Origin: a virus
Strand: one strand, 5' to 3'
DNA: 34,065 nucleotides
Virus record (IMG/VR): IMGVR_UViG_3300045482_000073
Coordinates: 1 to 34,065 of that record
Shown here: in pieces, positions 3,894 to 33,848 of the stretch
How positions within the stretch are numbered: the first letter of the stretch is position 1
Layout of the letters: each line of letters starts with the position of its first letter
Made by a program: the position numbers and the translations under genes
The notes under the pieces: generated by a model
Seen by the model: only the letters and a program-made list of their open reading frames with translations
Databases searched by the model: none
What the model was told of the DNA's origin: nothing

Positions 3894-4133
3894 ATGCCGC
3901 ATGACCTTGTGACGCAGGATGAACTGGAAGTCGGCGTCACCGAACTGCGGGATTCACTGGGGTTCACGGTCCGCCACGTCGCCGAATCGGGCACGCCCAT
4001 CGTCGTGCGGCGCTACCGGCGGGCGGAAGTGATCCTGGTCCCGCTGGCGGAATGGCGGCGTCTCAAGCAACTCGAAGCGGAACTTGGCGATCCCGATCCG
4101 TTCGACTTCGACGATGAACCAACCGAACTCTGA
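3894..4133 (+). CDS. Phd/YefM-family antitoxin-like protein (solitary)
   Basis: This 79-aa protein has the Phd/YefM layout: an N-terminal ELRDSLGFTVRHVAESGTPIVVRR segment with the beta-alpha DNA-binding fold, a strand ending VILVPLAEW, then an acidic C-terminal tail (DPDPFDFDDEPTEL) of the kind that normally wraps a toxin. Family members repress their own promoter and neutralise a partner toxin. No toxin gene (Doc, YoeB, PIN) is adjacent; the next gene is a methyltransferase. It could be an orphan used as a small repressor near the presumed origin, or an anti-defence antitoxin against a host toxin. Both are inference. The start at ATG 3894 follows the non-coding region. Confidence 0.7.
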   Translation: MPHDLVTQDELEVGVTELRDSLGFTVRHVAESGTPIVVRRYRRAEVILVPLAEWRRLKQLEAELGDPDPFDFDDEPTEL

Positions 4134-15404: not shown

Positions 15405-16024
15405 CCGATTTCCCGTTCGAACCCCTCGATATCGCGGCCTGCTACGGCACCGGGGTCACGGCGAATGCGATCCGCTGGGGCACGGCCTCTCTGCTGGCCC
15501 CGCCGCGACTGCGAATCGGACCCTCACACGTCGCCGTGCTGTGCGAGTTCCACGGACGGCAGATCTGGGTGGAGTCGACGACCCTCTGTCCCCATCCCTG
15601 CGTGATCCTGGCCCGGCACATCAACGGCTGTCAGGCCCACTTGCCGGAAATTCGGATTCATGACTACGTCAGCGCCGGGGGACGCGTTGACCTCTATCGT
15701 CTCTCGCCCATCGAGAAGCTCTCCAGAAATGAGAGCGAACTGCTGACGCGAATTCTGGTGCGGCACTTCATCGGTCAGGAAGTGACCTACGACCTCGGTG
15801 GGGCGCTCCTGTCCGGAACGCGGCTCTTCAAGCGGACCCGACTGCTGCCGTCCGCTGATCTCAACGAATTGTTCTGTTCGGAACTCGTGGCCGCCGTCTG
15901 CATGCGGCTGGGGCGGATGAACCGCTCCAACCCAACCCGGTTCAACCCCGCCTGCTTGCTGCGGGAACTTGTCCGCCACGGGACGTTCCAGTTCCACCAC
16001 TCATTCACCAGGGAGACTCTTTGA
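15401..16024 (+). CDS. Permuted NlpC/P60-like (YiiX/DUF830 type) cysteine peptidase or amidase
   Basis: This 207-aa protein matches the circularly permuted NlpC/P60 pattern: an early catalytic His in GPSHVAVL (His43), an acidic residue in WVEST (Glu59), and a late nucleophile Cys in LFCSELVAA (Cys159). Enzymes of this fold cleave peptide or amide bonds, often in peptidoglycan or in lipids and small molecules. It could be the phage endolysin or a tail-associated cell-wall enzyme. No signal peptide is visible. The neighbouring single-pass membrane protein and the membrane protease-thioredoxin overlap it at both ends (ATGA, TTGA), so the three are translated together and may act together at the envelope. 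Confidence 0.8.
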   Translation: MTDFPFEPLDIAACYGTGVTANAIRWGTASLLAPPRLRIGPSHVAVLCEFHGRQIWVESTTLCPHPCVILARHINGCQAHLPEIRIHDYVSAGGRVDLYRLSPIEKLSRNESELLTRILVRHFIGQEVTYDLGGALLSGTRLFKRTRLLPSADLNELFCSELVAAVCMRLGRMNRSNPTRFNPACLLRELVRHGTFQFHHSFTRETL

Positions 16025-17532
16025 TCGACTTTCTCCTCACCGCGCTGTTCTTCGCCTACGGACTCTGTCTGCTGCTGGCAATCCTGATCCCGCTCTGGAA
16101 CCGGTTTCTCGTGATTCCGTTCGTGCTGGCGATCGCCAGCGCGGCCTCAGCCGGAGTCCCGGAGTCGGTGGTCCTGGTCGGCGACTGCTCCGGCGTCTGC
16201 GTCGATCCGACGGGACTCGTGCTGACCGTCAAGCACTGCGACCTGCCGCCGGTGACGGTGGTCCGATTCCAGGACCGGACGGTCAGCGCTCGGCGGGTCT
16301 ATGTGTGCCCCGAAACGGAAGGCCCGGTCGTCTTCGACTGCGATGGCGAGGGCTTTCCGTTCGCCCGACTGGCTCAGGCGATCCCGCCCAATGGCGAGAA
16401 GGTCTGGTCGGCCGGGTATCCCGATGCGGCGGGTCGTCGTGAGCTTCGCTGGGCGTCGGGGCCGATCCTGGGCGGCAGCCAGTTCCGGTATCGGGACGGA
16501 ACCTTCCGAGGGAACGTCGTCGCATTCTCGACCGGACCGGGCTGGAGCGGCGGGCCGCTCTTCAATCCGCAAGGCGAGGTCTGCGGACTGCTCAACAGCA
16601 GTGATGGCTGCACGAGTGTGTTCGTATCCTACGCGGCGACACAAGAGGCCTATGTCGCCTGCCGCAATCGCCCCGCCAAGAAACCGACGCTGTATGTGTT
16701 CGGCTCGGTCCACTGCGGACCCTGCCTGAGGTTCAAGCAGCATTACGCCGAGCGGACTGCGCTGCGCCAACGGCTTGATGCTCAGTTCACAGTCGTGTTC
16801 GTCGACATCGACGTCCATCCCGGCACGGCGGACCAATTCGGGATCAAGGAAGTCCCCGCGTTCGTCGTCCCTGGCGAACCAGCCATCACCGGCTACACCG
16901 AGCCGGATGTGCTGCTCGGCAAACTGGGCGTCGTCGAGGAGCCAGCAACGCAGGCCACGGTGCCGACACCGCCGCTGGCCACGCCCCTGACGGAGCCGGT
17001 CCGCGAACCGGAGCAAACACCAGCGCCGCCACCCGCGCAAACCGTTACGGTCGAGAAGCCGCCGCCGGTCGCACCAAGCGTCACGCCAGCGGTCGGGGAA
17101 CCGGACCGTTCGGTCGCTGACCGGCTTGATCGCCTGAGCGGCCTGGTCCAGACCGGCGTTTCGATTGCGACCTGGCTGGGTGTCGGCGGCCTCACGGGTG
17201 GGGCCGGAGGGCTGGTCCTCGGCGGATTGGCCCTCTGGCGCACGTTGCGGCGACGTCGAGAAGCAAAAGCCGCCAGAGATTCCCCGGTGATCGCCACTCC
17301 GTCGACGCCCCGCGCACCACCGGTGGTCACGGTCGATAGTCCCCCGCCGCCACAAGCGATCGTCCCGGAAACCCGCTTCGCTCCATATGAGCGGGACACA
17401 TTTGCCGAAGCGTTCGCTTGGGCCGAGACGGAATTGGTCCGCAAGTACCCCGGCGCGGTCTCGACGCTCGAGACCCTCAAGGGGCTGATCAACCAGTTCC
17501 TGTCGGCCAAGGGCCTGAAGCCTAAGCCGTAG
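16021..17532 (+). CDS. Membrane-anchored trypsin-like protease fused to a thioredoxin domain
   Basis: This 503-aa protein starts with two hydrophobic segments (about residues 4-24 and 29-45, the second possibly a signal). A trypsin-fold domain follows at about 48-215: catalytic His in LTVKHC (His72), likely Asp in VVFDCDGEG (106 or 108) and Ser in GPGWSGGPLF (Ser176). A thioredoxin domain (about 220-305) has the redox centre HCGPC (231-235) and the cis-Pro loop EVPAF (277-281). A Pro/Thr linker, another membrane segment (about 381-406) and a basic, Pro-rich tail with a final helix complete it. It probably acts outside the membrane on disulfide-containing proteins. The TTG start overlaps the previous stop. 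Such a fusion inside a phage late operon is unusual. Confidence 0.85.
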   Translation: MIDFLLTALFFAYGLCLLLAILIPLWNRFLVIPFVLAIASAASAGVPESVVLVGDCSGVCVDPTGLVLTVKHCDLPPVTVVRFQDRTVSARRVYVCPETEGPVVFDCDGEGFPFARLAQAIPPNGEKVWSAGYPDAAGRRELRWASGPILGGSQFRYRDGTFRGNVVAFSTGPGWSGGPLFNPQGEVCGLLNSSDGCTSVFVSYAATQEAYVACRNRPAKKPTLYVFGSVHCGPCLRFKQHYAERTALRQRLDAQFTVVFVDIDVHPGTADQFGIKEVPAFVVPGEPAITGYTEPDVLLGKLGVVEEPATQATVPTPPLATPLTEPVREPEQTPAPPPAQTVTVEKPPPVAPSVTPAVGEPDRSVADRLDRLSGLVQTGVSIATWLGVGGLTGGAGGLVLGGLALWRTLRRRREAKAARDSPVIATPSTPRAPPVVTVDSPPPPQAIVPETRFAPYERDTFAEAFAWAETELVRKYPGAVSTLETLKGLINQFLSAKGLKPKP

Positions 17533-20064: not shown

Positions 20065-22062
20065 ATGCCCGCTTCCTCGCAATCGATCCGCGCCGGGAAG
20101 GCGTATGTCGAACTCTTCGCCGACGACTCCAAGCTCGTCCGCGGGTTGCGGTCTGCCCAGCGGAAGCTCCGGGCCTTCGGCTCGGCGGTGCAGACGTTGG
20201 GCAAGGGCGTGTTCGGAATCGGCGCGGGACTGGCCACGCCGTTCGTCACTGCCGCCAAGCTGTTTGCGGACATGGGGGGCGACCTGGATGACATGAGTCA
20301 GCGAACCGGGGTCTCGATCGAGTCGCTGTCGGAACTGGATTACGCCGCTCAACTCTCAGGCAGCAACCTGGAAACGCTGGAGGCGGGGCTTCGCAAGATG
20401 CAGAAGGCGGTCGTGGCCGCCGCCGAGGGTTCGGACTCCGCCGTGGCCACTTTGGGTCAGTTGGGACTGACCGCCCAGCAGTTGCAGCGACTCAGTCCCG
20501 ATCAGCAGTTCGAGTTGATCGCCGACCGGCTCTCGCAGATCCAGAATCCGGCCGAGCGCGCGGCGCTGGCAATGGAACTCTTTGGCAAAACCGGGACGGC
20601 GCTGCTGCCGCTGATGACCAACGGGGCGAAGGGAATCATCGCCCTGCGGCAGCAGGCGCGGGAACTGGGAGTGGTGCTGTCGACGGAGGACGCGCTGGCG
20701 GCTGCCAAGTTTGGCGACACGCTCGACACCCTCTGGAAAATCCTGCGAATGGGAGTCGTGCAGATCGGCGCGGCCGTGGCTCCCGTTTTGTCCGATCTCG
20801 CCGAAACGATCACCCGCGTCGCCGTCACGGTCGCCAGTTGGGTCAAAGAGAATCGCGCGTTGCTGGCCACGGTCTTCAAGGTGGCCCTCGGCATTATGGC
20901 GGCCGGCGCGGCGCTCTTGGCCCTGGGAGCCGTGATTTCCGGGATTGGCTCCGGGTTGGGATTGCTCGCCACGCTCGTCACCGGGCTCGGGACCGCGATC
21001 GGGTTCATCGGAACGGTTCTGGGCGCGATCCTGACGCCGGTCGGTGCCGTCACGGTCGCCATCGCAGCCCTCGGCGCATACGTCTTATCTGCGTCCGTCG
21101 CGGGAACCGCGGCGCTGGAGTGGCTCGGACAGCAGTTCGCGACGCTGCAGGCGGAAGCCCTCGGGGCGGTTCAGGGGATCAGCGATGCCCTGGCAGCAGG
21201 CGATCTGGCGCTCGCGGCCAAGATCCTCTGGCTGACGCTCAAGTTGCAGTGGCAGAAGGGGATCAACGCTCTCAATTCGCTGTGGCTGAATGTCAAAGCG
21301 TTCTTCGTCTCGGTCTGGACGGAGGCGGTTTACAACGTCGCCGCGATCGCGACCAATGCCTGGGCCGGGCTGCAAACCGGCTGGACCGAAACGGTCGACT
21401 TCCTGGCGGATGCCTGGTCCCTCTTTTCGACCGGACTGATTCAGGGTTGGCACACGACGATCGGGTTCATCCGCAAGGCCTGGGTCCGGCTCAAATCGCT
21501 GTTCGACTCCGACGTCAACGTCGATGCCGAGGTCACTCGGATCAATGACGATGTCGCGGGCAAGAACGCGGCGGCGACCGCAGCGCGCGATCAGTCGATC
21601 TTCGCACGAGATCAGGCCCGTCAGCAGCGGCTGTCTGAGCTCGACCAAGGCCGCAGCGGCACCCTGGACGAACTCGAACGGATGCGCGAGGCCGACCAGG
21701 CCCGACACCGCCAGCAGTTCGAGGCCGACCTGCAGGAATCGGACGCCGCACTCGCCGCCGCCCGGCAGGAATGGCAGGCGGCCCTCGAAGCCGCGTCCGA
21801 GAAGCAGGCCGCTGTCGAAGGCGAAGCGGGAGGTCGCCCTGACCGGATGCAGGAATTGGAAGACCTGTTGGCCCAGGCCGGCGATGGACTCGATGGAGCC
21901 GCCGCCAAAGTCAGCGTCAGCGGATCGTTCAATGCGGCGGCCGCGCGGGGGCTGGGCGCGGGAACCCATGCCGAACGGACTGCCAAAGCGACCGAGGAGA
22001 CCGCCCGCAACACCAAGCGGCTCCTGGACGAAGCCCATCACGGCGGGTTGCAGTTCACCTGA
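20065..22062 (+). CDS. Tail tape measure protein
   Basis: This 665-aa protein has an N-terminal domain typical of phage tail tape measures (AYVELFADDSKLVRGLRSAQ; then GGDLDDMSQRTGVSIESLSE), helix-rich spacing sequence, and a strongly hydrophobic central block (about residues 275-345) of the kind that inserts into the host membrane. The C-terminal region (about 505-600) is rich in Arg, Gln, Glu and Asp and should form a long coiled coil. Tape measures set tail length and help DNA entry. By the usual relation of length to tail size this suggests a tail of roughly 100 nm (inference). It begins nine bases after the T-like stop without a clear ribosome site. Confidence 0.9.
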   Translation: MPASSQSIRAGKAYVELFADDSKLVRGLRSAQRKLRAFGSAVQTLGKGVFGIGAGLATPFVTAAKLFADMGGDLDDMSQRTGVSIESLSELDYAAQLSGSNLETLEAGLRKMQKAVVAAAEGSDSAVATLGQLGLTAQQLQRLSPDQQFELIADRLSQIQNPAERAALAMELFGKTGTALLPLMTNGAKGIIALRQQARELGVVLSTEDALAAAKFGDTLDTLWKILRMGVVQIGAAVAPVLSDLAETITRVAVTVASWVKENRALLATVFKVALGIMAAGAALLALGAVISGIGSGLGLLATLVTGLGTAIGFIGTVLGAILTPVGAVTVAIAALGAYVLSASVAGTAALEWLGQQFATLQAEALGAVQGISDALAAGDLALAAKILWLTLKLQWQKGINALNSLWLNVKAFFVSVWTEAVYNVAAIATNAWAGLQTGWTETVDFLADAWSLFSTGLIQGWHTTIGFIRKAWVRLKSLFDSDVNVDAEVTRINDDVAGKNAAATAARDQSIFARDQARQQRLSELDQGRSGTLDELERMREADQARHRQQFEADLQESDAALAAARQEWQAALEAASEKQAAVEGEAGGRPDRMQELEDLLAQAGDGLDGAAAKVSVSGSFNAAAARGLGAGTHAERTAKATEETARNTKRLLDEAHHGGLQFT

Positions 22063-22071
22063 TGAAGACTC

Positions 22072-22869
22072 ATGAGCGTCACCGTCACCGAGAAATGGGA
22101 ATCGCGCGAGCAGTCGGCCGGGGAGCAGCCCTCGGTCGATCTGCGGTTCCTGGTCGTCGGGACAGCGGATGACATCAGTGCGCACAGCGAACTGATCGCC
22201 CAGACGCCAACGACCTACAACGGTCTCGTCCGGCAGTCGACGCACCTCGAACGCATCGCCGAGGAAGCCTGGGAAGGTTCGGTCCGGTACGGTCCCTATG
22301 AACCGCCCCAGACCGGGGACTCGTCGTTCTCGTTCGACACCGGCGGTGGCACGCAGCACATCACGCAGTCGCTGGGGACGGTCGGCGCGTGGGGCGCGGC
22401 GGGCATCTTTCCTCCCAACTTCCACGGGGCGATCGGAGCGACGCAAGACAGCATTGAAGGCGTGGACATCACCGTCCCGATCTACAACTTCAGCGAGACG
22501 CACTACATCGATCCGATCTTTGTGACCGGAGCCTACAAGGCGGCGCTGTTCTATCTGACGGGGACCGTCAATAACGGCGGCTTCCGGGGCTTCGCCGCCG
22601 GTGAAGTCCTGTTCCTCGGTGCGGCGGGTTCAGTGCGAGGACAAGAGCACTGGGAGATCACCTATCGTTTCGCGGCGAGTCCCAACGTCGTCGGGCTGTC
22701 GGTCGGATCGATTGGCGGCATCGCCAAACGAGGCTGGGATTACCTGTGGGTCCGCTACGCCGACGTTGAGGACTCGGCCGCCAAGATGCTGGTGAAGCGT
22801 CCGCTGGCGGTCTATGTCGAACAGGTCTACCCCTTCACCAACTTCTTCGGACTGGGGATCGGAACGTGA
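22072..22869 (+). CDS. Probable distal tail / baseplate protein
   Basis: This 265-aa beta-rich protein follows the tape measure directly (nine-base gap), where siphophages encode distal tail or baseplate-hub proteins. Visible landmarks are a SFSFDTGGGTQHITQS strand region, several Gly/Phe/Tyr-rich turns and a C-terminal KRGWDYLWVRYAD block followed by VEQVYPF. No named family is recognised. The role is inferred from position and beta composition. Confidence 0.65.
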   Translation: MSVTVTEKWESREQSAGEQPSVDLRFLVVGTADDISAHSELIAQTPTTYNGLVRQSTHLERIAEEAWEGSVRYGPYEPPQTGDSSFSFDTGGGTQHITQSLGTVGAWGAAGIFPPNFHGAIGATQDSIEGVDITVPIYNFSETHYIDPIFVTGAYKAALFYLTGTVNNGGFRGFAAGEVLFLGAAGSVRGQEHWEITYRFAASPNVVGLSVGSIGGIAKRGWDYLWVRYADVEDSAAKMLVKRPLAVYVEQVYPFTNFFGLGIGT

Positions 22870-22881
22870 CGAAAGGCTGAG

Positions 22882-22957
22882 GGTCGAGAGTTGAGAGTTG
22901 AGGGCCGGATTCTCTGCTTTCTTCTGACTCTCCACCCTCAACCCTCAACTCTCAACC
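22882..22957. repeat. Heptad-repeat hairpin between tail genes
   Basis: Left arm 22882-22904 and right arm 22935-22957 are inverted and match at 21 of 23 positions with a 30-base loop. The left arm reads GGTCGA then GAGTTGA units. The hairpin fills the gap between two tail genes. It has no T-run directly after it and so is not a classical terminator, although it might cause partial termination or RNA processing. It resembles the cassette at 18373-18807 without a gene inside. Confidence 0.75.
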
Positions 22958-22963
22958 ACTGTC

Positions 22964-23569
22964 ATGGGCGACCCACTCCAGAAAGTCCAGCGTGGTGAGC
23001 GGCTCCGCATTCCGGCGGAGACGTTTAACACGTTCATCGACGCCGCCAAGGACTTTCGGCAGCGAACCCAGAATCGCGGCCAATCGTCATTGGCCAACTT
23101 CGCCGACTCCGGGATCGTGCTGGTGAAGAACGCCAGCGGCGGAGATCGCGATCGCTACGACGTGCTGGGCATCGAACGCCCGATCTTTCTGCCATCGGAG
23201 AACCTGCTCAGCTTCACGAACCAACTGGCCGTCGTCGGTGTGACGCCTGACGAAGACAAGCATGTCGGGCGGTTCATCGTCCTGCTGGAACCGCTTAAGA
23301 ACGGACTCATCGGTCGTGGGCTGATCAGCGGGATCACGCCCGTGCGGCTCAATGTGCTTGATCCCGAACACGAGTGGGCCGACATCGAGGACGGGGAAGC
23401 CGACAGCCTCAAGACCGACACGGCCGGGAGTGCGTTCATCCTGTGGCGCGACGGGCCGGGGAGTGGTTACGGCGGCTACGGCTACGGGTATAGCTACTAC
23501 GGCAGCCCGTCGTGGGGACTGGTGCGGATTGGAAACCTGAGCGATGGGGACCAATGGGGGAGTGTGTAG
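22964..23569 (+). CDS. Tail-tip / structural protein with a Gly-Tyr-rich segment
   Basis: This 201-aa protein begins GDPLQKVQRGERLRIPAETF, followed by strands with DSGIVLVKN and FIVLLEPLKNGLIG. Near the C-terminus lies a Gly/Tyr/Ser run (GSGYGGYGYGYSYYGSPSWG), flexible and tyrosine-rich. No family is recognised. Placement after the probable baseplate gene suggests a tail-tip component. Because the next genes are modification enzymes beginning only three bases after this stop, its tyrosines and serines are possible modification targets (speculative). Confidence 0.65.
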   Translation: MGDPLQKVQRGERLRIPAETFNTFIDAAKDFRQRTQNRGQSSLANFADSGIVLVKNASGGDRDRYDVLGIERPIFLPSENLLSFTNQLAVVGVTPDEDKHVGRFIVLLEPLKNGLIGRGLISGITPVRLNVLDPEHEWADIEDGEADSLKTDTAGSAFILWRDGPGSGYGGYGYGYSYYGSPSWGLVRIGNLSDGDQWGSV

Positions 23570-23572
23570 CGC

Positions 23573-25948
23573 ATGTCAGCACCCGTCGCCGAACTCCTCG
23601 CGGAATTGACGCGGCGCGGTGTGACCCTGGAACCGCGTGGTGACGCGCTGGCGTTCCATCCCCGCTCGAAAGTCACTGGCGAACTCCGGGACCGCCTGCA
23701 GCAACACAAGTGGGAAATTCTTGGTCTGTTGCGAGGTGAGGTCGCGGCATCGACTCCCCAGTTCGTTGCAGCCACGTCGGTGGCAGCGGCGATTGAGTAT
23801 TCGGTCGCCGTGCTGGAACCCCGGACCGAGACCTTTGAATCGGCGCTGTTGAGTCTGTTTGCGCAGCCCACGCCATCACGTGAGGTTCTTGTCTGCGGTC
23901 CTGTTTCGAAGGTGATCCGCAAGACGATCCGAACCTATGCGGGCCGCCATGTGCGGATCGCCTCCTCACCCGCAGAGGCTCGTTGTGATCACGTCGTGTT
24001 GCTCGATGGCCGGACGTTGCTCGGGCGAGACTGGATCGTGTCCGCCTGTGCGGCGCTCACCGATGGCGTGGGCGCCGTCTACAGCGACCATGAACTCCTG
24101 ACGACCGGCGGTCGCACGCAGTACCCCGATCAGGTCATGGGGGACGACCTCGCCCGATCCGGCTTGGAGGCCCCGACCCTGCTGGTCCGCCGCTCGGCGC
24201 TGGTTGAGGCTTGGCAGCCAGGCGATTCGCTCAGCGGGCTTTTGCGGAAGCTCTCTCGGAACGGCTGGCAGATCCGCAAGCACGCGGTGGCGGTGCTGTT
24301 TCGGGGCGGTGGCGACGCCAGTTACTTCGCTCGCCAGGAGTTGGCTCGCGAGACGATGACGCTGTTCATCCCGCTCGCCGGTCGTGAATCTCTGTGGCGC
24401 GAACTGCGGAGGTTCCTCGATCGACAGACGTGGCCGCATTCACAACTCCGGTTGATCCTGTGCGATACCAGCCAGGACGAGCAGTTCGCCCGTCTCGTCC
24501 GGGACTGGATCAGCCGGTCCGACTATCCCGATGTCCGGCATCTGCGGTTCGCGCCGGGAACGAAAGGGCTGGCCGATCTCCCCCGCGACCAGCAGATCGT
24601 CGCCGTCAATGAGGCGATGTGCCGCATCTACAACCAGCTGCGGCAGTGCCTGACGACCGATTACGTGTGGGTGCTCGAAGACGACGTCGTTCCGCCGGAC
24701 GATGTCCTCCCGCGACTGATGCAATCCTTCGACGAACACACGGCGTCGGTCTGTGCGCCCTATCGGTCGCGGTTCGACGGCTGGTATCTCGTCTGGTCCC
24801 GCGAGCGTCTCGGCGACAACGGCGTCCATCAGCTCACAAAGCCGCTCCCCGACAGTCCTCAGGTCCACGAGATTCGGGGGAGCGGGTTCGGTTGCGTCGT
24901 GCTCCGGGCGGAAGTGCTGCGCCAGCACATCTTTCATCTGCCCGGCCAGGATCGTTGGTACGACGTCCGGTTCTTCCGCGACCTGCCGGGCCGCTGGAAA
25001 CGCAAGGTTGATTGGTCCTGCGAATGTCGGCACCTGCACAACACGCCGCGTCCGGCCACCACGATCGCGAAACGAAATCTGCTGTATCACGTCACGCCGT
25101 TTGCCTCGAACGACATCTGGCTGCGGAACATCCGACAGTTGGTGAAGCGGATCGACCTGTTCAACGGTCGGCGAGTAATTGCAGTGGCGACGGGCGAGGG
25201 GCTGGCATCTCCTGATGAAGTCCGCGCCGCGTTCGGCTCCCACGAGATCAAGATCATCCCGCATCCGAACTCGCGTGAGTTGCGTGAGAACGCCACGTTC
25301 CTGAAGCTGATGGAACAAGTCGAGTCGACCGATCCCAACGAAGCCACGTTCTACGCCCATGCCAAGGGCGTCGCCAAGGACATCCATTGCTCGGGCGATC
25401 CACTGGGTTCACGGTATTGGCGGAACGCCATGTACCACGAACTCCTGGACGGCTGGGGTCGAATCGCGGAACTGCTCGAAGAGTACCCGGTCGTCGGCTC
25501 GCATCGCAGGCATCATCCGCACCACCCCACGATCTATCCGGATGGTCAGAGTTCGTCCGACTGGCATTTCGGAGGAACGTTCTTCTGGTTCCGAAACCGG
25601 GATGTGTTCGCGACCGATCGCTGGCGTGAGGTCTGGCAGCCGACCGGCTGGGGAGCGGAAGCATGGGTGGGCCGCATGTTCTCATTCGATCAGTCCGCCT
25701 GCGTCGCCTACGACGGCCTCGAAGACGCTTACAACCCCGACAGCTACTTCCCACAGATCGATGACGAGGTGCCCGCCGATGGACGTGACGCTGACGACGA
25801 TTCTGTATCAGCCCGATTGGTCCCGGACGGGACCGATCATCGAGCAGAACCTCGCCGCACTCGACGCCAGCGGACTCAGCGGCGAACTGCTGATCGTCGA
25901 CAACTCGCCGATGCCCACGGTTCCAGCATTGGAACTGGCGGCTCGTGA
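23573..25948 (+). CDS. Multi-domain glycosyltransferase with TubC_N-like docking domain
   Basis: This 791-aa protein has an N-terminal helix-hairpin-helix module (about residues 1-57, LLAELTRRGVTLEPRGDALA then ELRDRLQQHKWEILGLL) resembling the TubC_N docking domain of NRPS/PKS enzymes. Residues about 80-255 look like a degenerate GT2 domain. A second GT domain (about 258-560) has WPHSQ, LCDTSQDE and the metal-binding VLEDDVVPPDD (near 366-376). A third region has ATFYAHAKGV (near 595). It should move sugars from nucleotide donors to an unknown acceptor. It begins three bases after a tail gene. The last 57 or so residues are Arg-rich, overlap the next gene by 170 bases and look like read-through after loss of the original stop. 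Confidence 0.85.
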   Translation: MSAPVAELLAELTRRGVTLEPRGDALAFHPRSKVTGELRDRLQQHKWEILGLLRGEVAASTPQFVAATSVAAAIEYSVAVLEPRTETFESALLSLFAQPTPSREVLVCGPVSKVIRKTIRTYAGRHVRIASSPAEARCDHVVLLDGRTLLGRDWIVSACAALTDGVGAVYSDHELLTTGGRTQYPDQVMGDDLARSGLEAPTLLVRRSALVEAWQPGDSLSGLLRKLSRNGWQIRKHAVAVLFRGGGDASYFARQELARETMTLFIPLAGRESLWRELRRFLDRQTWPHSQLRLILCDTSQDEQFARLVRDWISRSDYPDVRHLRFAPGTKGLADLPRDQQIVAVNEAMCRIYNQLRQCLTTDYVWVLEDDVVPPDDVLPRLMQSFDEHTASVCAPYRSRFDGWYLVWSRERLGDNGVHQLTKPLPDSPQVHEIRGSGFGCVVLRAEVLRQHIFHLPGQDRWYDVRFFRDLPGRWKRKVDWSCECRHLHNTPRPATTIAKRNLLYHVTPFASNDIWLRNIRQLVKRIDLFNGRRVIAVATGEGLASPDEVRAAFGSHEIKIIPHPNSRELRENATFLKLMEQVESTDPNEATFYAHAKGVAKDIHCSGDPLGSRYWRNAMYHELLDGWGRIAELLEEYPVVGSHRRHHPHHPTIYPDGQSSSDWHFGGTFFWFRNRDVFATDRWREVWQPTGWGAEAWVGRMFSFDQSACVAYDGLEDAYNPDSYFPQIDDEVPADGRDADDDSVSARLVPDGTDHRAEPRRTRRQRTQRRTADRRQLADAHGSSIGTGGS

Positions 25949-26417
25949 TAACCGGGTTCGGTTGCTCTGGAACGATGGACACAACCTCTACATCGCGGGA
26001 GCATTGAACCGCGTCCTGGGCGTGGCCCAGAGTCCGAAACTGGTCTACTTCTGCGCATCGCACGGATTGGCTCGTGATCCGACTTGGCTCCAGGACATCC
26101 TGAGGCCGCTCGACGATCCGGCAATTGGAGCGGCGGGTTGCGTGCTGCCGTGCCAGTTCAGCGCCGTCGCGGCAGTCCCGGAAGACATCATCGATCCCCA
26201 GCATCACATCCAGGGAGGCGTCTGGTCGGCGCGGATGGAAGTGCTGCGACAGATCGGCTTCAGCCATCGGTTCCCTTTCGAGTTCTGCGATGTCGATCTC
26301 TCCCGTCGTCTGCTGGCAGCGGGATACCAACTCGCTTCCACCGCCACGATCGTCTCGGTCGCAAGCGGCATCATTCCTGACCCGGAGCGTTACAAATATG
26401 TCCACGACTACCGCTGA
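25779..26417 (+). CDS. GT2-family glycosyltransferase
   Basis: This 212-aa protein begins MDVTLTTILYQPDWSRTGPI and contains the GT2 signature GELLIVDNSPMPTVPAL, then NLYIAGALNRVLGVAQSPKL and FFCASHG-like sequence where DxD usually sits, a GGVWSARMEVLRQIGF acceptor loop and FEFCDVDLSRRLLAAGY near the end, the usual GT2 finale. It is a short single-domain transferase, likely cytoplasmic. ATG 25779 has GAGG nine bases upstream and lies well inside the 3' part of the preceding gene. The canonical DxD is not evident, so activity is not certain. Confidence 0.85.
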   Translation: MDVTLTTILYQPDWSRTGPIIEQNLAALDASGLSGELLIVDNSPMPTVPALELAARDNRVRLLWNDGHNLYIAGALNRVLGVAQSPKLVYFCASHGLARDPTWLQDILRPLDDPAIGAAGCVLPCQFSAVAAVPEDIIDPQHHIQGGVWSARMEVLRQIGFSHRFPFEFCDVDLSRRLLAAGYQLASTATIVSVASGIIPDPERYKYVHDYR

Positions 26418-27036
26418 CCCCAAAGCACCGGTCACGGGACGGTTCGAGCTCCCGTTCCGGCATCTGGTCCTCGACAACTGGGCGGAACCGGAACTCGTCC
26501 GGGCGGCTGAGATCGAATGGCCGAAGCCCGACTGGCCACACTGGCATCGCTACGACTGCGGCAAGCTGGCCACGAAAGACCCGCTCCGATTCCCATCGGC
26601 ATGCGCTGAACTAATCCGTCGCCTGCTCTGCCTTCGCGTTGGCGAACTGATGGGGCTGGAGGACACGTTCGGCGACTGGAATTGTCACGGGGCCGGGCTG
26701 CACACTTCACCACCGGGCGCGAATCTCGGTGTCCATCTCGACAGCGACCATCACCCGAATACCGGCTGGCAACGAGCCTGCAATGCAATCCTGTTCGTGA
26801 GTTCCAGTTGGCGACCCGACTGGGGCGGCGAACTGGAACTCTGGAATGCCGATGGCACCAAGTGCCTGAAGCGGATCGCTCCCCGGTTCAACCGGCTGGT
26901 TCTGTTCGAACCGAGCGACGTGGCGTTCCACGCTGTCGCCAGAAACGCCGGTCCTGAAACCCGGAAAACGCTGGCCACATTCTACTGGCGCGCAGCACTG
27001 ACCACCGGCATCCGTCCCCGCGCCCAGTTCTGTTGA
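26398..27036 (+). CDS. 2OG-Fe(II) dioxygenase (prolyl 4-hydroxylase-like)
   Basis: This 212-aa protein has the double-stranded beta-helix iron site: HxD in GVHLDSDHHP (His113, Asp115), distal His in DVAFHAVA (His178), and the 2-oxoglutarate-binding Arg in ETRKTLATFYW (Arg189). Such enzymes hydroxylate protein side chains, bases or sugars using 2-oxoglutarate and O2. Placed among glycosyltransferases, it may create hydroxyl groups that are then glycosylated, as in collagen-type or hypermodified-base pathways (inference). It overlaps the previous gene by 20 bases; GGAG stands ten bases before ATG 26398. Confidence 0.88.
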   Translation: MSTTTADPKAPVTGRFELPFRHLVLDNWAEPELVRAAEIEWPKPDWPHWHRYDCGKLATKDPLRFPSACAELIRRLLCLRVGELMGLEDTFGDWNCHGAGLHTSPPGANLGVHLDSDHHPNTGWQRACNAILFVSSSWRPDWGGELELWNADGTKCLKRIAPRFNRLVLFEPSDVAFHAVARNAGPETRKTLATFYWRAALTTGIRPRAQFC

Positions 27037-27044
27037 GGTGATCG

Positions 27045-27578
27045 ATGGATTTCACGAGCGACTGGCACAGCATGCATATCCCGTTCTGGCAGGAACATCT
27101 CGGTGAATTCGATGGCCGCCCCGTGCGCTGCCTGGAGATCGGCAGCCACGAAGGCCGCAGTGCCGTTTGGATCGCCCAGCATCTGCTGTCACATCCGTCG
27201 GCCTCGCTGACCTGTATCGACACCTGGCTCGATGCGGAAGCCGAACGCCGCTTCGATGCCAACATCGCCGAGACTGGGCGGGCATCCCAAGTCCGTAAAC
27301 TCAAGACGGACTCGTGGCGGGGACTGCTAAGCCAAGGGCCGGGGTTTGACCTGATCTACATCGACGGCAGCCACGAAGGCCGACAGGTCCTGGAAGATGC
27401 CATCCTGGCGTTCCGCGTCCTGAAACGTGGCGGGCAATTGATCTTCGATGACTACGAGAACGTACCGAATGACGTTCGACAGCCGCCCAAACCGGCGATC
27501 GATGCGTTTTTGCTGCTGTGGGGCGACCAGTTTACCGTCCTCCATCTGGAATCGCAGGTCATCGTTCGCAAATGTTGA
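27045..27578 (+). CDS. Class I SAM-dependent methyltransferase (Methyltransf_24-like)
   Basis: This 177-aa protein has a SAM-binding motif CLEIGSHEGRSAVW (about residues 29-42), the acidic ribose-binding residue in LTCIDTW, and LIYIDGSHEGRQVLEDA (about 103-119), typical of small methyltransferases found in glycan clusters, where they methylate sugars or small molecules. A GAGGTGA box precedes ATG 27045 by a few bases, and it begins eight bases after the dioxygenase stop. The substrate is unknown. A hairpin terminator follows its stop. Confidence 0.87.
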   Translation: MDFTSDWHSMHIPFWQEHLGEFDGRPVRCLEIGSHEGRSAVWIAQHLLSHPSASLTCIDTWLDAEAERRFDANIAETGRASQVRKLKTDSWRGLLSQGPGFDLIYIDGSHEGRQVLEDAILAFRVLKRGGQLIFDDYENVPNDVRQPPKPAIDAFLLLWGDQFTVLHLESQVIVRKC

Positions 27579-27606
27579 TTGCCTCTGAATCTGTTTCAAC
27601 CCGTTG

Positions 27607-27635
27607 AACCGCGATGGACTCGTGCCATCGCGGTT
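27607..27635 (+). terminator. Hairpin terminator-like stem (perfect 11 bp)
   Basis: AACCGCGATGG (27607-27617) and CCATCGCGGTT (27625-27635) form a perfect 11-bp stem with a 7-base loop, followed by T-rich TCGTTGTTCC. It lies between the methyltransferase stop and the next ATG, so it may partly terminate the late transcript inside the glycan block. Confidence 0.7.
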
Positions 27636-27656
27636 TCGTTGTTCCCGGAGTTCCGC

Positions 27657-30611
27657 ATGTCCACCACTCTTGAAGCCTTTCGCCAGCAGTTCGACGCCTT
27701 CGGCCCGTGGACGACACGATTTCGTTTGCGCGGCGAAGTGTTCGGAGGCGGTTATGAAGTCAGCGAAGACGATCCGCTCATGCGGATGTTCATCGAACAC
27801 ATCCCCTCGGCTCGCCGAGTTCTGGAACTCGGCTGCATGGAAGGGGGAAGAACATTCCCGCTTGCCCGCCGCGTTGGCCATGTCGTGGGACTAGATGCCC
27901 GGCGCGAGCATCTCCAGCGGGCCCGGTTCGTCGAGAAGGAACTGGGCGTCTCGAATGTGACATTCCTGGAGAGCGACCTCGAATCGGGTGACCTGGCGTC
28001 GCTTGGTTCATTCGATGCCGTGTTCAACGTCGGCTTGCTCTATCACCTGAACGATCCGGCCCGGTTGCTGCGACAATGTGCAGAGGTCGCCCCGGAAATG
28101 CTGCTCTGGACGCACGTCGTCGATGACGCGGACGCCGAACATCGTGGCTACCGCGGCAGGTTCGCCGGAGAGAATCCATCTGATCGAATCGGCGGACTGC
28201 GATCCAAATCATTCCGCCCCGAGCGGTCCGAACTGGTCCGCATGCTGGATGACTGCGGCTGGCGGGACTTGGAATGGCTCCAGGACGATGCATCCTCCAT
28301 GACGCTCTGGTGCCGGACGACGATCGGCCCGCGTCCAAAACGAACCGTGCAGCTGTTGCCCACGCTGGCGGTCATCATCACTGCCCACAATTACGGGCTG
28401 TACCTCGACGAATGCCTGCAAAGCGTCCTGAATCAGAGCCGCCGTCCGGATGAGATTCTCGTCGTCGATGACGCCTCGACCGACGATACGCCTGATGTCG
28501 TGGCCCGCTGGTCCGATCGGGGCGTGCGGTCTCTCCGCGTGGACCATCACGACCCCCGGCAATCGCGGTTATCGGGGCTCCAGGCGACGAGCGCCGAGTT
28601 CGTTTGTTTCCTCGACGCCGACGATCGCTTGGCCCCCGACTACCTGCGGGGCGGTCTGGCGGGTTTCGATCGCTACGACATTGGCATCGTCTATTCCGAC
28701 GTTGATTACTTCGGCGACTGGAACCGCTGTCACCAGGAGCCGGAAGAGATCACGCTGGCCGACATGGGGAAGCTGAACTATGTCCACAACGGCTCGATCG
28801 TCCGCCGCGAGGCGTTGGAGATGAGCCGGGCGCTGGAAGTGCCCTGCGATTCGCTCTGTTCCCACGAAGACTGGCTCGCCTGGCGGCGCATCCTCGAACA
28901 AGGTTGGAAGGCGAAGAAGCAACGGGGCATCTACGGTTATCGCCGGCACGAGGCCAACCGGACGAACTCGAAATACAAGACGGCAAACTACTTCAACCAG
29001 CGGGCAATGGAGACCGAGACCGTCACGCTGTTCGTGGCGTTGTCGGGTCGCACCGCCGTCTGGCCCCGGTTCCTGCAGTTTCTCGAGCAGCAGTCGTGGC
29101 CCCATTCACAGGTCAAGCTCTGGCTGCTCGACACCAGCCAGGACGAGCGTTTCGGTCGCCGCATCCGGCGCTGGATCAGCCAGTGCGACTATGCCGACGT
29201 GCGCTATCGCGCCGAAGCCGTGGCGACGCCCGGCCTGGCGGATGCCCCTCGCGACAACGGAGCCACTCTCGACGCGGTGCGGATGGCGGCGGCCAGGATT
29301 TACAACCGGCTGGCCCGTGAGGTCACTGGGCATTACGTCCTGACCGTCGAAGATGACGTCATCCCGCCGAATGACGTGATTGAACGATTGCTGCGTGGAT
29401 TCGACCACCAGGTCGCCTCCGTCGCCGCGCCGTATCCTTCCCGATTCCACAAAGGGTATGTCGCCTGGTCCACCGGGCGACAACTGATTGAAGAAGGGCC
29501 TGCTCCCGCCACGGAACCGAAGATTTCAGATTCCAGCGAGCCGAACCTGCGATTCGCTCAGGTGGAAGGTAATGGGTTTGGCTGCACGATGTTTCGCAGC
29601 GACGTGTTCCGCGAGGCGCTGTTCACCGCCCGCCAGCAGCCTTACGTCGATTTCGACCCAGCGTTCTATGAGCGGCTGAAATCGACGGGTTTGCAGGCCA
29701 AGCTCTGCTGGGATGCTGAGTGCCAGCATCTCGCCAACGATGAAGCCCAGATCATGCTGGCGGGGCATTGGCCCGAGGCTTGGGAGACTCTCGACCTGGC
29801 CGAATACCGCTCGAACATGCTCCACGGCCGCGAAGCGATGGAATGGATCGTCAAGACGCTGAATGGTTCCGAACCCGCCGCAATCTGGGGCCTATCCGAC
29901 GGCGACGTCGCCTGGTGGTGCTACGACGCATTGGCTCGGGAACTGAAGGAGGCGAGGAGGGCCGAGGGGGCAAACGCTCCGGACTACCTCCGCTGGCTTC
30001 GTTTCCTGGCCGACACGAGTGGCCTGCACCCCGAAGACCGGGACGAACTCTGGCCCCTGTTCGATCAGGCGTGCCGCAACACCCCGCACTGGCTGGTTCA
30101 ACACTGGTGGGAACCTGCCGAGCGATTCACACTGCAGGCGCTGAAAGCCCAAGGCGTGACGGTCGATGCGGAAGGATTCGGCTACGCTCGAAGCCGCAAA
30201 CAAAAGATCGACTGCAATGCTGTCTACCGGCTGATGGATGAGGGGTTGTGGTGGCCGATCCTGGCCAACAAACGCCTCGCCATCGTCAGTGGCCACGCCG
30301 ACGCATTCGCCGCCCGCCTGCTGGACTCGGACTTTGTCCGGGCCAGCGGCGGCGGCGAGATCACATGGAACATCGCGGCGAAGGTCACATGCCCGTCAGT
30401 CCATGAACCAAAGCACTCGCACTTACAGTGGATGCGAGACGATTTGCTCTCGTCACGATGGGATCTGCTGTTGTGCTCGGCAGGATCGCTGTCGACGATC
30501 CTTTGCAGCCAAGCGGCACATACAGGCCGACTGGCACTCGACGTGGGTGCGTTGGATCGACAACTTATCGAATGTTCCGCCAACGAATTGTTGACACCCA
30601 AGTTTTGCTGA
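27657..30611 (+). CDS. Four-part methyltransferase-glycosyltransferase protein (MTase, GT2, GT, GT-D)
   Basis: This 984-aa protein has an N-terminal SAM methyltransferase (VLELGCMEGGRTFPLA near residue 60), a GT2 domain (AVIITAHNYGLYLDECLQS near 238; VVDDAS; FLDADDR near 318), and a further GT-like domain (about 451-720) with WPHSQ, LLDTSQDE and TVEDDVIPPND near 562 that is paralogous to one in the 791-aa protein upstream. The C-terminal region (about 723-980) resembles the GT-D family: IWGLSDGDVAWWC, DLLLCSAGSLST and RLALDVGALD. It probably builds and methylates a multi-sugar chain. ATG 27657 has GGAG seven bases upstream; a TTG at 27579 would run through the terminator and is rejected. Confidence 0.87.
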   Translation: MSTTLEAFRQQFDAFGPWTTRFRLRGEVFGGGYEVSEDDPLMRMFIEHIPSARRVLELGCMEGGRTFPLARRVGHVVGLDARREHLQRARFVEKELGVSNVTFLESDLESGDLASLGSFDAVFNVGLLYHLNDPARLLRQCAEVAPEMLLWTHVVDDADAEHRGYRGRFAGENPSDRIGGLRSKSFRPERSELVRMLDDCGWRDLEWLQDDASSMTLWCRTTIGPRPKRTVQLLPTLAVIITAHNYGLYLDECLQSVLNQSRRPDEILVVDDASTDDTPDVVARWSDRGVRSLRVDHHDPRQSRLSGLQATSAEFVCFLDADDRLAPDYLRGGLAGFDRYDIGIVYSDVDYFGDWNRCHQEPEEITLADMGKLNYVHNGSIVRREALEMSRALEVPCDSLCSHEDWLAWRRILEQGWKAKKQRGIYGYRRHEANRTNSKYKTANYFNQRAMETETVTLFVALSGRTAVWPRFLQFLEQQSWPHSQVKLWLLDTSQDERFGRRIRRWISQCDYADVRYRAEAVATPGLADAPRDNGATLDAVRMAAARIYNRLAREVTGHYVLTVEDDVIPPNDVIERLLRGFDHQVASVAAPYPSRFHKGYVAWSTGRQLIEEGPAPATEPKISDSSEPNLRFAQVEGNGFGCTMFRSDVFREALFTARQQPYVDFDPAFYERLKSTGLQAKLCWDAECQHLANDEAQIMLAGHWPEAWETLDLAEYRSNMLHGREAMEWIVKTLNGSEPAAIWGLSDGDVAWWCYDALARELKEARRAEGANAPDYLRWLRFLADTSGLHPEDRDELWPLFDQACRNTPHWLVQHWWEPAERFTLQALKAQGVTVDAEGFGYARSRKQKIDCNAVYRLMDEGLWWPILANKRLAIVSGHADAFAARLLDSDFVRASGGGEITWNIAAKVTCPSVHEPKHSHLQWMRDDLLSSRWDLLLCSAGSLSTILCSQAAHTGRLALDVGALDRQLIECSANELLTPKFC

Positions 30612-30652
30612 GCCGCTTTTCTTTGATCACTTGACGCGATCCCGAATCACAT

Positions 30653-30698
30653 AGCCCAACGTGCCGGCGAACGCTGGTCCGTTGGGCTGTTTTGTTCT
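30653..30698 (+). terminator. Strong rho-independent terminator ending the late operon
   Basis: AGCCCAAC (30653-30660) pairs perfectly with GTTGGGCT (30681-30688), with a nested near-perfect inner stem (CCGGCG / CGCTGG), and is followed by the T-rich GTTTTGTTCT. It sits just before the last three-gene glycan set and probably ends transcription of the main late unit. Confidence 0.8.
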
Positions 30699-30707
30699 CA
30701 AAGAGAT

Positions 30708-32063
30708 ATGGCCTCACGTAAGCCGCCGCACAGACTGTTTTCGATTTCAGTTCGATCTCATGCTGACATCGTGGAGAGAAATCTTCAGAATATGAACGCA
30801 GCCGATCCGCTCAGCCTCCTCTCTGGGAATCAAAGCATGCCAGTTCCAGTGGCGTGGGAGCGTACCAAGTTTGGTAAGCCCACTTGTCGTCCGACCGAGT
30901 TCCATTCACTGGTCGCTGACGCGCCGTCCCCCGTCTTTCGGGGAACGGTAGCGTTGCGACGCCGACCGGTGCGAGTAGCTTTCTTAACGCCGACTTTGTT
31001 GATGGGAGGGGCCGAACGCTGGATGGTAAGCCTGGCCCAGCGGTGCGACCGTCAGCGGATCGTCTGGACGGGCACCGCCCTGTCGGATTGGGCTCCGGCG
31101 AAGCCAGAGATCTGTCGCGAGATGTCTGCTTATATGCCGATTTACGCTGGGCCGGGGGCAGGACCGGCAGAGGAGTGTCCTGCCGTCGTGCGGTGTCAAT
31201 CGACGAGCGAAGCGATTCGGCGAGCTACGCGAGATGCAGACATCCTGGTGACATGGGGATTGCCCGACCTCGGACCATTGTTGACCGGGATCGATCTGCC
31301 CGTCGTGTTCGTCTCACATGGGGCAGGCGACTGGACAGCCCGTGCTGTGCAAAGCAGCGAATCGGCCTGCTCCCATTTCGTCGCCGTCTCGGAAACCGCG
31401 TTGTTGCCGTTTCGACCGCATACACGAGCTCGTGCGATCGTGTTGCACAACGGCGTCGATGTCGAGCGCTGCGCGCCGACTCAACCACGGGAAATCACTC
31501 GGCACAACCTCGGCTTTGACGACCAAGACATCTTGATTGGATACGTCGGCCGCTTCTCCTTCGAGAAGAATCCGTTGGCAGCGGTGATCGCCGCCCGCAA
31601 ATTGGGAGGTCGATTCCATGCGGTGTATTGCGGCGAAGGGTGGAAGGAAGCGGAAGTCCGATCCGCGGCCGAGAAGATTGCCGGTGACCGGGTGCGCTTT
31701 GTGCCGCATCAGCGGGTTGTGGGGAATATTCTGTCCGCGCTTGATGTGTTCCTGCTGGCTAGTCCGGCGGAAGGGTTTTCTCTATCGCTGACCGAAGCCT
31801 GGTATGCCGGGGTTCCGACTGTAGCCACACGAGTGGGGGCGGTGCCAGAGCTCGAACGAAACAATGGCGAACTCGTCTCGGCCGTTCCAGTGAATCCGTC
31901 ACCGCGCATTCTGGCGAGAGCGGTGCTGCGCGCTCACTCCCCGACTTTTCGTCAGGAGATCGTGCCTCGCGCCCAAAAGCTCGTTGCCGAACGGTACACC
32001 TCGACGGCGATGGCGCGGCGCTGGACCGATTACCTGGAGACGATCTGCGGCGACCAACCATGA
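30708..32063 (+). CDS. GT4-family glycosyltransferase
   Basis: This 451-aa protein has an N-terminal acceptor half starting at about residue 87 (VRVAFLTPTLLMGGAERWMV) and a C-terminal donor half with LIGYVGRFSFEKNP (about 276-289), CGEGWK and the GT-B E-x7-E motif PAEGFSLSLTEAWYAGVP (near 353-370). It is a retaining GT-B enzyme, probably cytoplasmic. The first 80 or so residues are not conserved-looking; internal ATGs at 30792 and 30838 are possible starts. It follows the strong terminator, so it needs its own promoter; none is obvious. The coding sequence reads as less GC-rich than the phage genes, which may indicate separate acquisition. Confidence 0.88.
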   Translation: MASRKPPHRLFSISVRSHADIVERNLQNMNAADPLSLLSGNQSMPVPVAWERTKFGKPTCRPTEFHSLVADAPSPVFRGTVALRRRPVRVAFLTPTLLMGGAERWMVSLAQRCDRQRIVWTGTALSDWAPAKPEICREMSAYMPIYAGPGAGPAEECPAVVRCQSTSEAIRRATRDADILVTWGLPDLGPLLTGIDLPVVFVSHGAGDWTARAVQSSESACSHFVAVSETALLPFRPHTRARAIVLHNGVDVERCAPTQPREITRHNLGFDDQDILIGYVGRFSFEKNPLAAVIAARKLGGRFHAVYCGEGWKEAEVRSAAEKIAGDRVRFVPHQRVVGNILSALDVFLLASPAEGFSLSLTEAWYAGVPTVATRVGAVPELERNNGELVSAVPVNPSPRILARAVLRAHSPTFRQEIVPRAQKLVAERYTSTAMARRWTDYLETICGDQP

Positions 32064-32956
32064 GACGGACTATCCTACATATTCTGTCCACATCCTATTC
32101 TGGCAGCAGCCTGCTCACGCTGCTGCTGGACTGTCAACTTGGCGTGCGTGGTCTCGGAGATGCCGTGCATCTTGCAGAACGCAGCCAGTCCGCCGAGTGT
32201 CTCCGTTGCGGGGTTCCCGCTAAAGATTGTCAACTTGCCAGAGTCGTCTCGGATGACGCCTTCTATGGTCCGATCTTGGACTATTATGGTAGCCCGACAA
32301 CAGTACTCGTCGACGCCTCCAAGAGCCTGTGGAACTCATTGCTGCGGCACCCCTCCGAACCTGATCTCGATCACTTGTGCATTTTGCTGAGCAAGTCTCC
32401 GCACGAATTCGCCGCATCCTGGGTGGGACATCACTTCGAAGCGTCCGTTGACGATGCGTTTCGCCTCTACCTGGCTTTCTACCGAGCTGAACTGGAATTC
32501 TTGTGGAATGTGTATGGCGTTGCTCCCGATTGCGTGACCACCGTCACCTATCAAGATCTCGCGCGACAGCCGCATGTCGTCCTGCAGTCGCTCTGCAACT
32601 TTGTGCACATCGTGGCGAGGCCGCTGGTCGACTGTCGCTGGTGGGAAAGCGACAGTCATGTGATTGGGGGCAACTGGCTGGTGAACGCTCAGGTGACCGG
32701 TTTTGACGAAACGCTGCAGCGAGCGGGACCGCAAGACCGAGTCCGCTATGCCGGACGCGAACACGCCGTTTTCTACGATCCACACTGGGAGTCGGATCGG
32801 GAGTTTGTGCAAGAATGCCTTGTCGCCTACGACCAGTGGAAATCTCCATTGACTCCAATACTTCGGGAGCTCGGACAGCCCGCCGTGGAACGACTATACC
32901 AAGAAGCTTTTCTGGTAAGTCGGTCGCCTCCAATCGAACAATCCCGCGAGCTGTGA
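32060..32956 (+). CDS. Sulfotransferase-family protein
   Basis: This 298-aa protein has the PAPS-binding P-loop-like start HILSTSYSGSSLLTLLLD (residues 7-24) and a later TVLVDASKS loop that fits the 3'-phosphate site. Family members transfer sulfate from PAPS to hydroxyl groups of sugars or tyrosines. ATG 32060 overlaps the preceding stop (ATGA), so it is coupled to the GT4 gene and probably sulfates the glycan that enzyme makes. Two cysteine pairs (ECLRCGVPAKDC) resemble the Cys-rich insert seen in some bacterial sulfotransferases. Confidence 0.82.
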   Translation: MRRTILHILSTSYSGSSLLTLLLDCQLGVRGLGDAVHLAERSQSAECLRCGVPAKDCQLARVVSDDAFYGPILDYYGSPTTVLVDASKSLWNSLLRHPSEPDLDHLCILLSKSPHEFAASWVGHHFEASVDDAFRLYLAFYRAELEFLWNVYGVAPDCVTTVTYQDLARQPHVVLQSLCNFVHIVARPLVDCRWWESDSHVIGGNWLVNAQVTGFDETLQRAGPQDRVRYAGREHAVFYDPHWESDREFVQECLVAYDQWKSPLTPILRELGQPAVERLYQEAFLVSRSPPIEQSREL

Positions 32957-32969
32957 AAGAGCATCGACA

Positions 32970-33848
32970 ATGTCCGCAATTTTACCGCAGCATGTGGCCT
33001 TGCCTCCACGCGAAATCGTGGGCGAAGAACCCTATCGCCAACTCTGTTGGGATTACTTGCGCTCGACGCTAAACCCCTTGCCCGTCACGGTCGAACTCGA
33101 CGACACGCTGACCGCCGTTTGTCCCGGTGCATTTGCGATTCGCGTCGATGGCGTCCCGGCGGTTTATGATTACAGCGACTACCTGCTGGTCGATGGCGCT
33201 CAACAACATCATCGGCACTGGTTCCGCTTTCACCATACTCAGGGATACGTCCCGCACGACAACCTGTCGTCGTTTCCTCCCATCAGCTTTCTCGATTGGA
33301 ATGAATTCCACGAAACCAGTTCCCGGCTTCACTACGATGCTTTTGGTGACACCATTCTGCATTCACAGTCCTTCGAGTTTCTTGCCGGTTCCTCTATGAC
33401 CCGCGATCATGATCTCTACGTGCGTCGCAAAACGGTCCGGGACCGGCTGCTCACTGAGTTCGGCACGCTCGTGCAAGCAGAGCGATTGTCCCAACGCGAC
33501 TTCTGGCAGGCCGCCTGTCGCGCGCTCATCTCCATCCACATTCCAGGGAGCTGGCGGCATTCGTTGGATCGCGGCCAGCATCAGTTGCTGGGGTTCGGGG
33601 TCTGCACATTATCGCCGGAGATCTGGACCACGGCGCTCGACCGACGGATCGAGGCCTATCAACACTATGTTCCGGTGCGGGACGATTTCTCCGATCTGAT
33701 TTCACAGGTGCTGTGGTGCCGGGATCATCGTGCCGAGTGCGTAGCGATGGGTGGCCGAGCCAAAGCGTTCTTTCTGGAGCATTCGACCCCGGCCGCCATT
33801 TGGTCTTTCATCGCTAGGAAAGTGCGCGTCGGTGCATCGGTGACCTAA
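32970..33848 (+). CDS. CAP10/GT90-like putative glycosyltransferase
   Basis: This 292-aa protein carries a C-terminal motif typical of CAP10/KDELC/GT90-like or exostosin-like transferases: YQHYVPVRDDFSDLISQVLW followed by AMGGRAKAFFLEH (about residues 230-270). The N-terminal half is poorly conserved and lacks an obvious donor-binding motif. The protein is shorter than most of the family, so it may be reduced or divergent. It begins 13 bases after the sulfotransferase stop and completes the three-gene glycan set. Confidence 0.65.
   Translation: MSAILPQHVALPPREIVGEEPYRQLCWDYLRSTLNPLPVTVELDDTLTAVCPGAFAIRVDGVPAVYDYSDYLLVDGAQQHHRHWFRFHHTQGYVPHDNLSSFPPISFLDWNEFHETSSRLHYDAFGDTILHSQSFEFLAGSSMTRDHDLYVRRKTVRDRLLTEFGTLVQAERLSQRDFWQAACRALISIHIPGSWRHSLDRGQHQLLGFGVCTLSPEIWTTALDRRIEAYQHYVPVRDDFSDLISQVLWCRDHRAECVAMGGRAKAFFLEHSTPAAIWSFIARKVRVGASVT

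Follow-up and report, generated by a model that had tools for sequence, protein, structure and literature searches.

What would a tailed phage do with a large set of glycan-modifying enzymes encoded at the very place in its late operon where its relatives encode a tail fibre? The question is raised by IMG/VR record IMGVR_UViG_3300045482_000073, which was analyzed whole (34,065 bases, the "window" below) and is classed as linear without end repeats; the host phylum of the virus is Planctomycetota. Its late region is siphovirus-like, with genes for terminase, portal, a fused protease/capsid protein, a decoration protein, a major tail protein and a tape measure protein. Two tail-end genes, here called P265 and P201, come next, and they are followed by five genes for putative glycan-modifying enzymes that include several glycosyltransferases (GTs) and a 2-oxoglutarate (2OG) oxygenase (the block, 23573-30611). 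We consider it reasonably probable that this block glycosylates the phage's own virion, with P201 as the likeliest acceptor. The features on which the argument turns are as follows.

20065..22062, plus strand: tail tape measure protein (PHROGs tape measure, E 4e-38)
22072..22869, plus strand: P265, conserved tail-end protein and marker of the tail module in Planctomycetota phages (relatives in viral contigs and genomes)
22964..23569, plus strand: P201, a fibre-base domain (~144 amino acids, aa) without the long fibre of its homologues (homologue comparison; model with a mean predicted local distance difference test score, pLDDT, of 76.8)
23450..23506, plus strand: Gly-Tyr-rich loop formed by residues 163-181 of P201, a candidate acceptor site (inserted into the beta-hairpin ILW..WALVR)
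23573..25948, plus strand: TubC-GT, with a TubC_N docking domain, a degenerate GT-A domain, a GT-A domain with an EDD motif and a C-terminal conserved domain (Pfam TubC_N and Glycos_transf_2, alignment, model)
25761..26417, plus strand: GT2-like protein, CASHG at the expected DxD site (Glycos_transf_2 E 7e-4, below the cut-off)
26398..27036, plus strand: 2OG-Fe(II) oxygenase, prolyl-hydroxylase-like, HxD...H and R kept (Pfam 2OG-FeII_Oxy_3, PF13640, 1e-15)
27045..27578, plus strand: methyltransferase of the Methyltransf_24 family, accessory (Pfam 3e-21)
27657..30611, plus strand: 984-aa protein with methyltransferase, GT2, GT-A (EDD motif) and GT-D-like (PF22882) domains (Pfam)

Order and conservation of the enzyme block

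Gene calls and Pfam matches bear out the five genes, enzyme classes and order given by the original prediction, which had been made from the letters of the window, as well as the three-base gap that it had noted behind the tail genes. The fifth protein does have the 984 aa and the methyltransferase, GT2, GT and GT-D parts ascribed to it, when counted from the ATG of the 27657-30611 gene, and contains two Glycos_transf_2 stretches. Genes are arranged in the order tape measure, P265, P201 and enzyme block; from the last base of P201 (23569) to the opening ATG of the block (23573) there is a gap of 3 nucleotides (nt), and the next block genes are tightly packed, with overlaps of 14 and 20 nt. Since homologues of TubC-GT stop near residue 735 (homologous part to ~25774), the 791-aa open reading frame (ORF) overruns by 56 codons into the GT2 gene in another frame.

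Relatives of TubC-GT were found first in contigs L003, L004 and L005, then in two Planctomycetota contigs from metagenome-assembled genomes (L006 and L007), and then in more viral contigs; a tblastn search of 50,697 phage records returned no relative of TubC-GT and none of P265. The order tail genes, P265, P201, TubC-GT, GT2 and 2OG oxygenase is shared by L003, L005, L006 and L007. The methyltransferase/GT2/GT protein comes next in L005 (in a version that lacks the GT-D part), L006 and L007, and L003 stops before that point. TubC-GT, as the one block gene confirmed there, also lies directly 3' of P201 in L008, which ends inside the gene, and in L033, and L009 and L010 carry a diverged version of it. 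The Methyltransf_24 gene was found again in L006 only, and L003, L005 and L007 have a sulfotransferase-like gene instead. Beyond the block the flanks differ, with an insertion-sequence-like gene, as read from its sequence, in L005 and unrelated minus-strand genes in L006. Several phages with different flanks thus share the same arrangement of tail genes and block core, and by this comparison the block 23573-30611 is part of the phage. The original prediction had proposed a search for the same block in other phages and had allowed that it might lie outside the phage, past an attachment (att) site before 23573; the core was found behind the same tail genes in Planctomycetota phages and prophages, phage-borne and conserved with those genes.

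In two longer records a large serine recombinase is encoded at one end of the element and the block at the other, which makes it probable that the phages are temperate and carry integrase and block at opposite ends. A comparison of the two ends of the G005 element gave no direct repeat above 11 bases that could mark att sites. The same element (L019 381-5705, L009 16207-20622) has McrBC genes near the recombinase and, past the GT block, a large helicase-like gene, possibly a defence island as far as its sequence can be read.

P201 and the glycosyltransferase genes behind it

Relatives of P265 were found as 155 candidate stretches in viral contigs and in 41 of 392 Planctomycetota genomes, so that about one-tenth of the sampled genomes carry this tail marker; the single genomes G363, G383 and G314 have 4-6 P265 matches each, which suggests several related prophages per cell. 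P201 was compared with a profile built on its N-terminal 150 aa (a longer version, profile length 369, ran into an overlapping wrong frame), and the N-terminal ~144 aa are conserved across the P265-bearing phages. Beyond this base the homologues usually carry 80 to ~1000 more residues, which form Ser-rich (L037, L047, L048, L144, L141), Thr-Gly-rich (L168), collagen-like (L043, L075) or other fibres, and in the clade of the present record only 54-69 residues follow. By homologue comparison P201 corresponds to the conserved base that a family of fibres shares across Planctomycetota phages, newly recognised here. The original prediction that no receptor-binding fibre is recognisable can therefore be made more precise: the base of a fibre is present as P201, and its long C-terminal part is missing.

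The Gly-Tyr stretch of P201 has been inserted between ILW and WALVR, at a point occupied by a short turn in other phages. The predicted structure shows a beta-hairpin whose strands, 157-162 and 182-189, are joined by this stretch as a disordered loop, with residues 167-178 at pLDDT under 50. No Ser-rich region is present in the P201 of this record; the Ser-rich relatives L037, L047, L048 and L144 have GTs 3' of the fibre gene. The P265-P201 spacer (22870-22963, 94 nt) forms a long hairpin (-40.4 kcal/mol, z -3.75); the spacer of L006 is ~4 nt, which suggests that a small palindromic element was inserted here. At L004 4354-4857, P265 and P201 are apparently fused through a deletion, and a minus-strand ORF lies between TubC-GT and GT2.

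Matches to PF00535 or PF00534 were present in 12 of 49 viral contigs with the tail module; every one lies on the same strand as P201 and at most 6.4 kb 3' of it (in some cases the distance is just 3, 5 or 20 bases), and none was found elsewhere on those 49 contigs. The corresponding random-placement figure (log10 p -13.6) is descriptive only, as it ignores the relatedness of the contigs. These GT matches comprise GT2, GT4, and GT2 with methyltransferase, and another branch has Mannosyl_trans3, the gene for which lies 0.9-2.2 kb 3' of P201 in 14 contigs (L059 11294-12604, L073, L097, L101 and others). GT2 or GT4 accompanies the Gly-Tyr fibre type in 9/9 cases, other low-complexity fibres in 8/10 and the rest in 1/58; Fisher tests of this association (3e-7, 5e-8) are not used as proof, because the counts are non-independent on the P265 tree. 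Relatives thus repeatedly keep GT genes right after the fibre gene, and sugar-coated fibres may be common in this group.

A search of the 392 Planctomycetota genomes with the EDD-motif GT domain gave matches in 18, of which 8 were strong. Among the strong loci inspected outside this tail module, one lies after a tape measure gene and a tail-like protein gene (L221) and one after a tail-like protein gene (L220), marine contigs L012 and L014 have the EDD-GT gene among virion genes, and the locus in L222 is an isolated fragment. In L223-L226 the GT2+GT family adjoins Cys-containing proteins of ~1500-1800 aa and a series of short 'NPxC...PP' proteins.

Possible functions of the block

Several features of the enzymes bear on what they might act upon. 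The TubC_N match of TubC-GT (Pfam E 3e-10) has predicted elements H3-15, E18-22, E25-29, H36-44 and H46-53, the alpha-beta-beta-alpha-alpha order of the TubC fold. Its first GT-A domain is degenerate and has lost DxD (LDGR, against VDAD in L009), and the EDD motif of the second is invariant among homologues. The CASHG motif of the GT2-like protein recurs in L003 and L005. In the oxygenase the iron ligands HxD...H and the 2OG-binding Arg are conserved, and the closest profiles (a putative hydroxylase, OGFOD1, 4iw3 and HIF prolyl hydroxylases) point to a protein substrate. The block proteins contain no membrane-segment-like stretches other than a marginal window of 19 aa in GT2, and Pfam found no flippase, bactoprenol GT or polytopic GT of the gtr-type families among them.

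We favour self-modification of the virion because the block is phage-borne and conserved, the 3-nt gap leaves no room for a promoter, clear membrane segments are absent, the oxygenase resembles prolyl hydroxylases and GTs follow the fibre gene in relatives. The block would then be a cassette expressed late, whose enzymes act once the tail genes have been translated. The cytoplasmic 2OG oxygenase may hydroxylate a virion protein, which TubC-GT, GT2 and the GT2/GT/GT-D protein would O-glycosylate, and the glycan would be trimmed with methyl groups, and in some relatives with sulfate too. P201, a fibre base without a protein fibre and with a flexible Gly-Tyr loop, is the likeliest acceptor; TubC_N may dock the first enzyme onto it, and the glycan might stand in for the fibre, in attachment or in shielding. 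Sequence comparison shows that the block belongs to the phage, how its genes are ordered and conserved, that the fibre is missing and where GT genes lie relative to P201, whereas late expression, enzyme activity, acceptor, docking and purpose are inferred. A bolder version, that this clade of Planctomycetota phages swapped its protein fibre for an attachment glycan on a Gly-Tyr loop that docked enzymes hydroxylate and glycosylate, and that fibre-glycosylation cassettes are interchangeable more widely, is speculative and on balance doubtful.

A number of points weigh against virion glycosylation. Activity, sugar and acceptor are all putative; one GT domain is degenerate and GT2 has no DxD. Lysogenic-conversion genes are commonly located at a prophage end, which is where the block is found. 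The Gly-Tyr loop and TubC-GT sit in one group of the P265 tree and so count as one change, a single event, and the association of low complexity with GTs has only 3 independent pairs, of which about 2 agree and 0 oppose. Finally, the predicted fold of P201 has a weak likeness (Z at most 6) to the phi29 head-fibre base and to head-decoration proteins, so that even its assigned place in the virion is tentative.

The original prediction had offered remodelling of the host surface as its other option, and this takes second place here: that the enzymes change a host surface glycan and so bring about superinfection exclusion or lysogenic conversion is unlikely, though worth keeping in view. Sulfotransferases, methyltransferases and GTs are the usual tools of surface-polysaccharide modification, and the two longer records with a serine recombinase opposite the block look temperate, with the block beside unrelated flanking genes. 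The gtr serotype-conversion cassettes of temperate phages likewise place GT genes near a prophage end, but nothing like the membrane proteins GtrA, GtrB and GtrC was seen here. The lack of gtr-type families and of clear membrane segments argues against this explanation, as do the gap of only 3 nt behind a tail gene, a sign of late expression, and the placement of GT genes specifically 3' of the fibre gene.

Since they lie in the slot where homologues carry a fibre, the GT-fold proteins might themselves be receptor-binding parts of the virion, anchored on P201 by TubC_N and binding host glycans instead of a fibre. TubC_N is a docking domain and the first GT domain is degenerate, but conservation of the EDD motif and of the Fe/2OG ligands is what enzymes would show, and an oxygenase and methyltransferases would contribute nothing to binding, so we regard this as improbable. 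Hypermodification of the phage DNA, in which a methylated base would be oxidised and then glycosylated, is suggested by the fact that the same phage encodes an oxygenase, GTs and a DNA methyltransferase. It is very improbable, since the oxygenase is of the 2OG-FeII_Oxy_3 kind, nearest to prolyl hydroxylases and not to TET/JBP, and the DNA methyltransferase is of the N6_N4_Mtase type, which leaves no 5-methylcytosine substrate in sight. Least credible of all is that the block is host DNA past the phage end. The linear record without end repeats and a slight drift in GC content at third codon positions (GC3; 0.72-0.76 in the block, mostly 0.77-0.83 in the structural genes) might be taken that way, yet the conserved order of block core and tail genes across phages with different downstream flanks already contradicts it for 23573-30611, though not for 30708-33848.

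Known systems and neighbouring features

Glycosylated virions are known from few phages, and the gene order described here predicts them for a widespread, little-studied group, with the acceptor predicted down to one loop; if true, this bears on phage attachment to Planctomycetota and on sugars taking over the role of a fibre. Glycosylation of virions by phage GTs is itself already known, and what is new is its proposed setting in the fibre-base slot of Planctomycetota phages, with an oxygenase and methyltransferases. Glycans have been reported on capsid proteins of the mycobacteriophages Che8 and Rita (cited in PMC11256854), and the related phage Maravista has its GT genes near the 3' genome end. 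Phage-encoded GTs are common to both cases, whereas glycans were reported on virion proteins there and only genes seen here, and here the GTs lie directly 3' of a fibre-base gene and are accompanied by an oxygenase and methyltransferases.

The bacterial protein dGT1, which joins GT-D to GT-A, acts on the Ser-rich adhesin Fap1 (PMC5063993). It resembles the present case in that a GT cluster serves a surface protein, GT-D is joined to GT-A and the Ser-rich acceptor is like the fibres of relatives; it differs in being bacterial, in its DUF1792, which is unmatched here (a PF22882 GT-D-like domain is present instead), and in that P201 is not Ser-rich. Mimivirus glucosylates collagen hydroxylysine, and L230, R699, LH3 and ColGalT1 take part in collagen modification (PMC9546862). 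There a viral hydroxylase and GTs act on fibre-forming proteins, as is proposed here, and in structural comparisons of the TubC-GT model (mean pLDDT 64.9, middling confidence) chondroitin polymerase, LH3, ColGalT1 and mimivirus R699 were among the best structural matches. The likeness is at fold level only (identity 10-14%) and shared with generic GT-A folds, however, this phage has no collagen, and its hydroxylase and GT are separate proteins. The Foldseek match to chondroitin polymerase, LH3 and ColGalT1 is of a kind generic for tandem GT-A folds, and we do not read it as evidence of homology.

Three further features lie within or beyond the end of the block.

27606..27636, plus strand: hairpin in the gap 5' of the 984-aa gene, possible attenuator (fold z -2.6)
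30651..30690, plus strand: terminator-like hairpin with a T-rich tail behind it, probable operon end (fold of 30612-30700: -35 kcal/mol, z -4.65)
30708..33848, plus strand: genes for GT4, sulfotransferase-like and GT90-like proteins outside the block, either additional cargo or host flank (Pfam)

The last genes are left outside the block because a strong terminator precedes them, their GC3 is lower (0.62-0.67) and no counterparts of them were found in the relatives; the sulfotransferase-like gene at 32060 gave weak matches only in the 392 Planctomycetota genomes. Elsewhere in the window, a Phd/YefM-like antitoxin gene (3894-4133) adjoins the ParB/DNA methyltransferase gene, and the late operon encodes a protein (16021-17532) that begins with a hydrophobic N-terminus and combines a trypsin-like peptidase with a thioredoxin-like domain; homologues of this protein are present in L005, L007 and L009.
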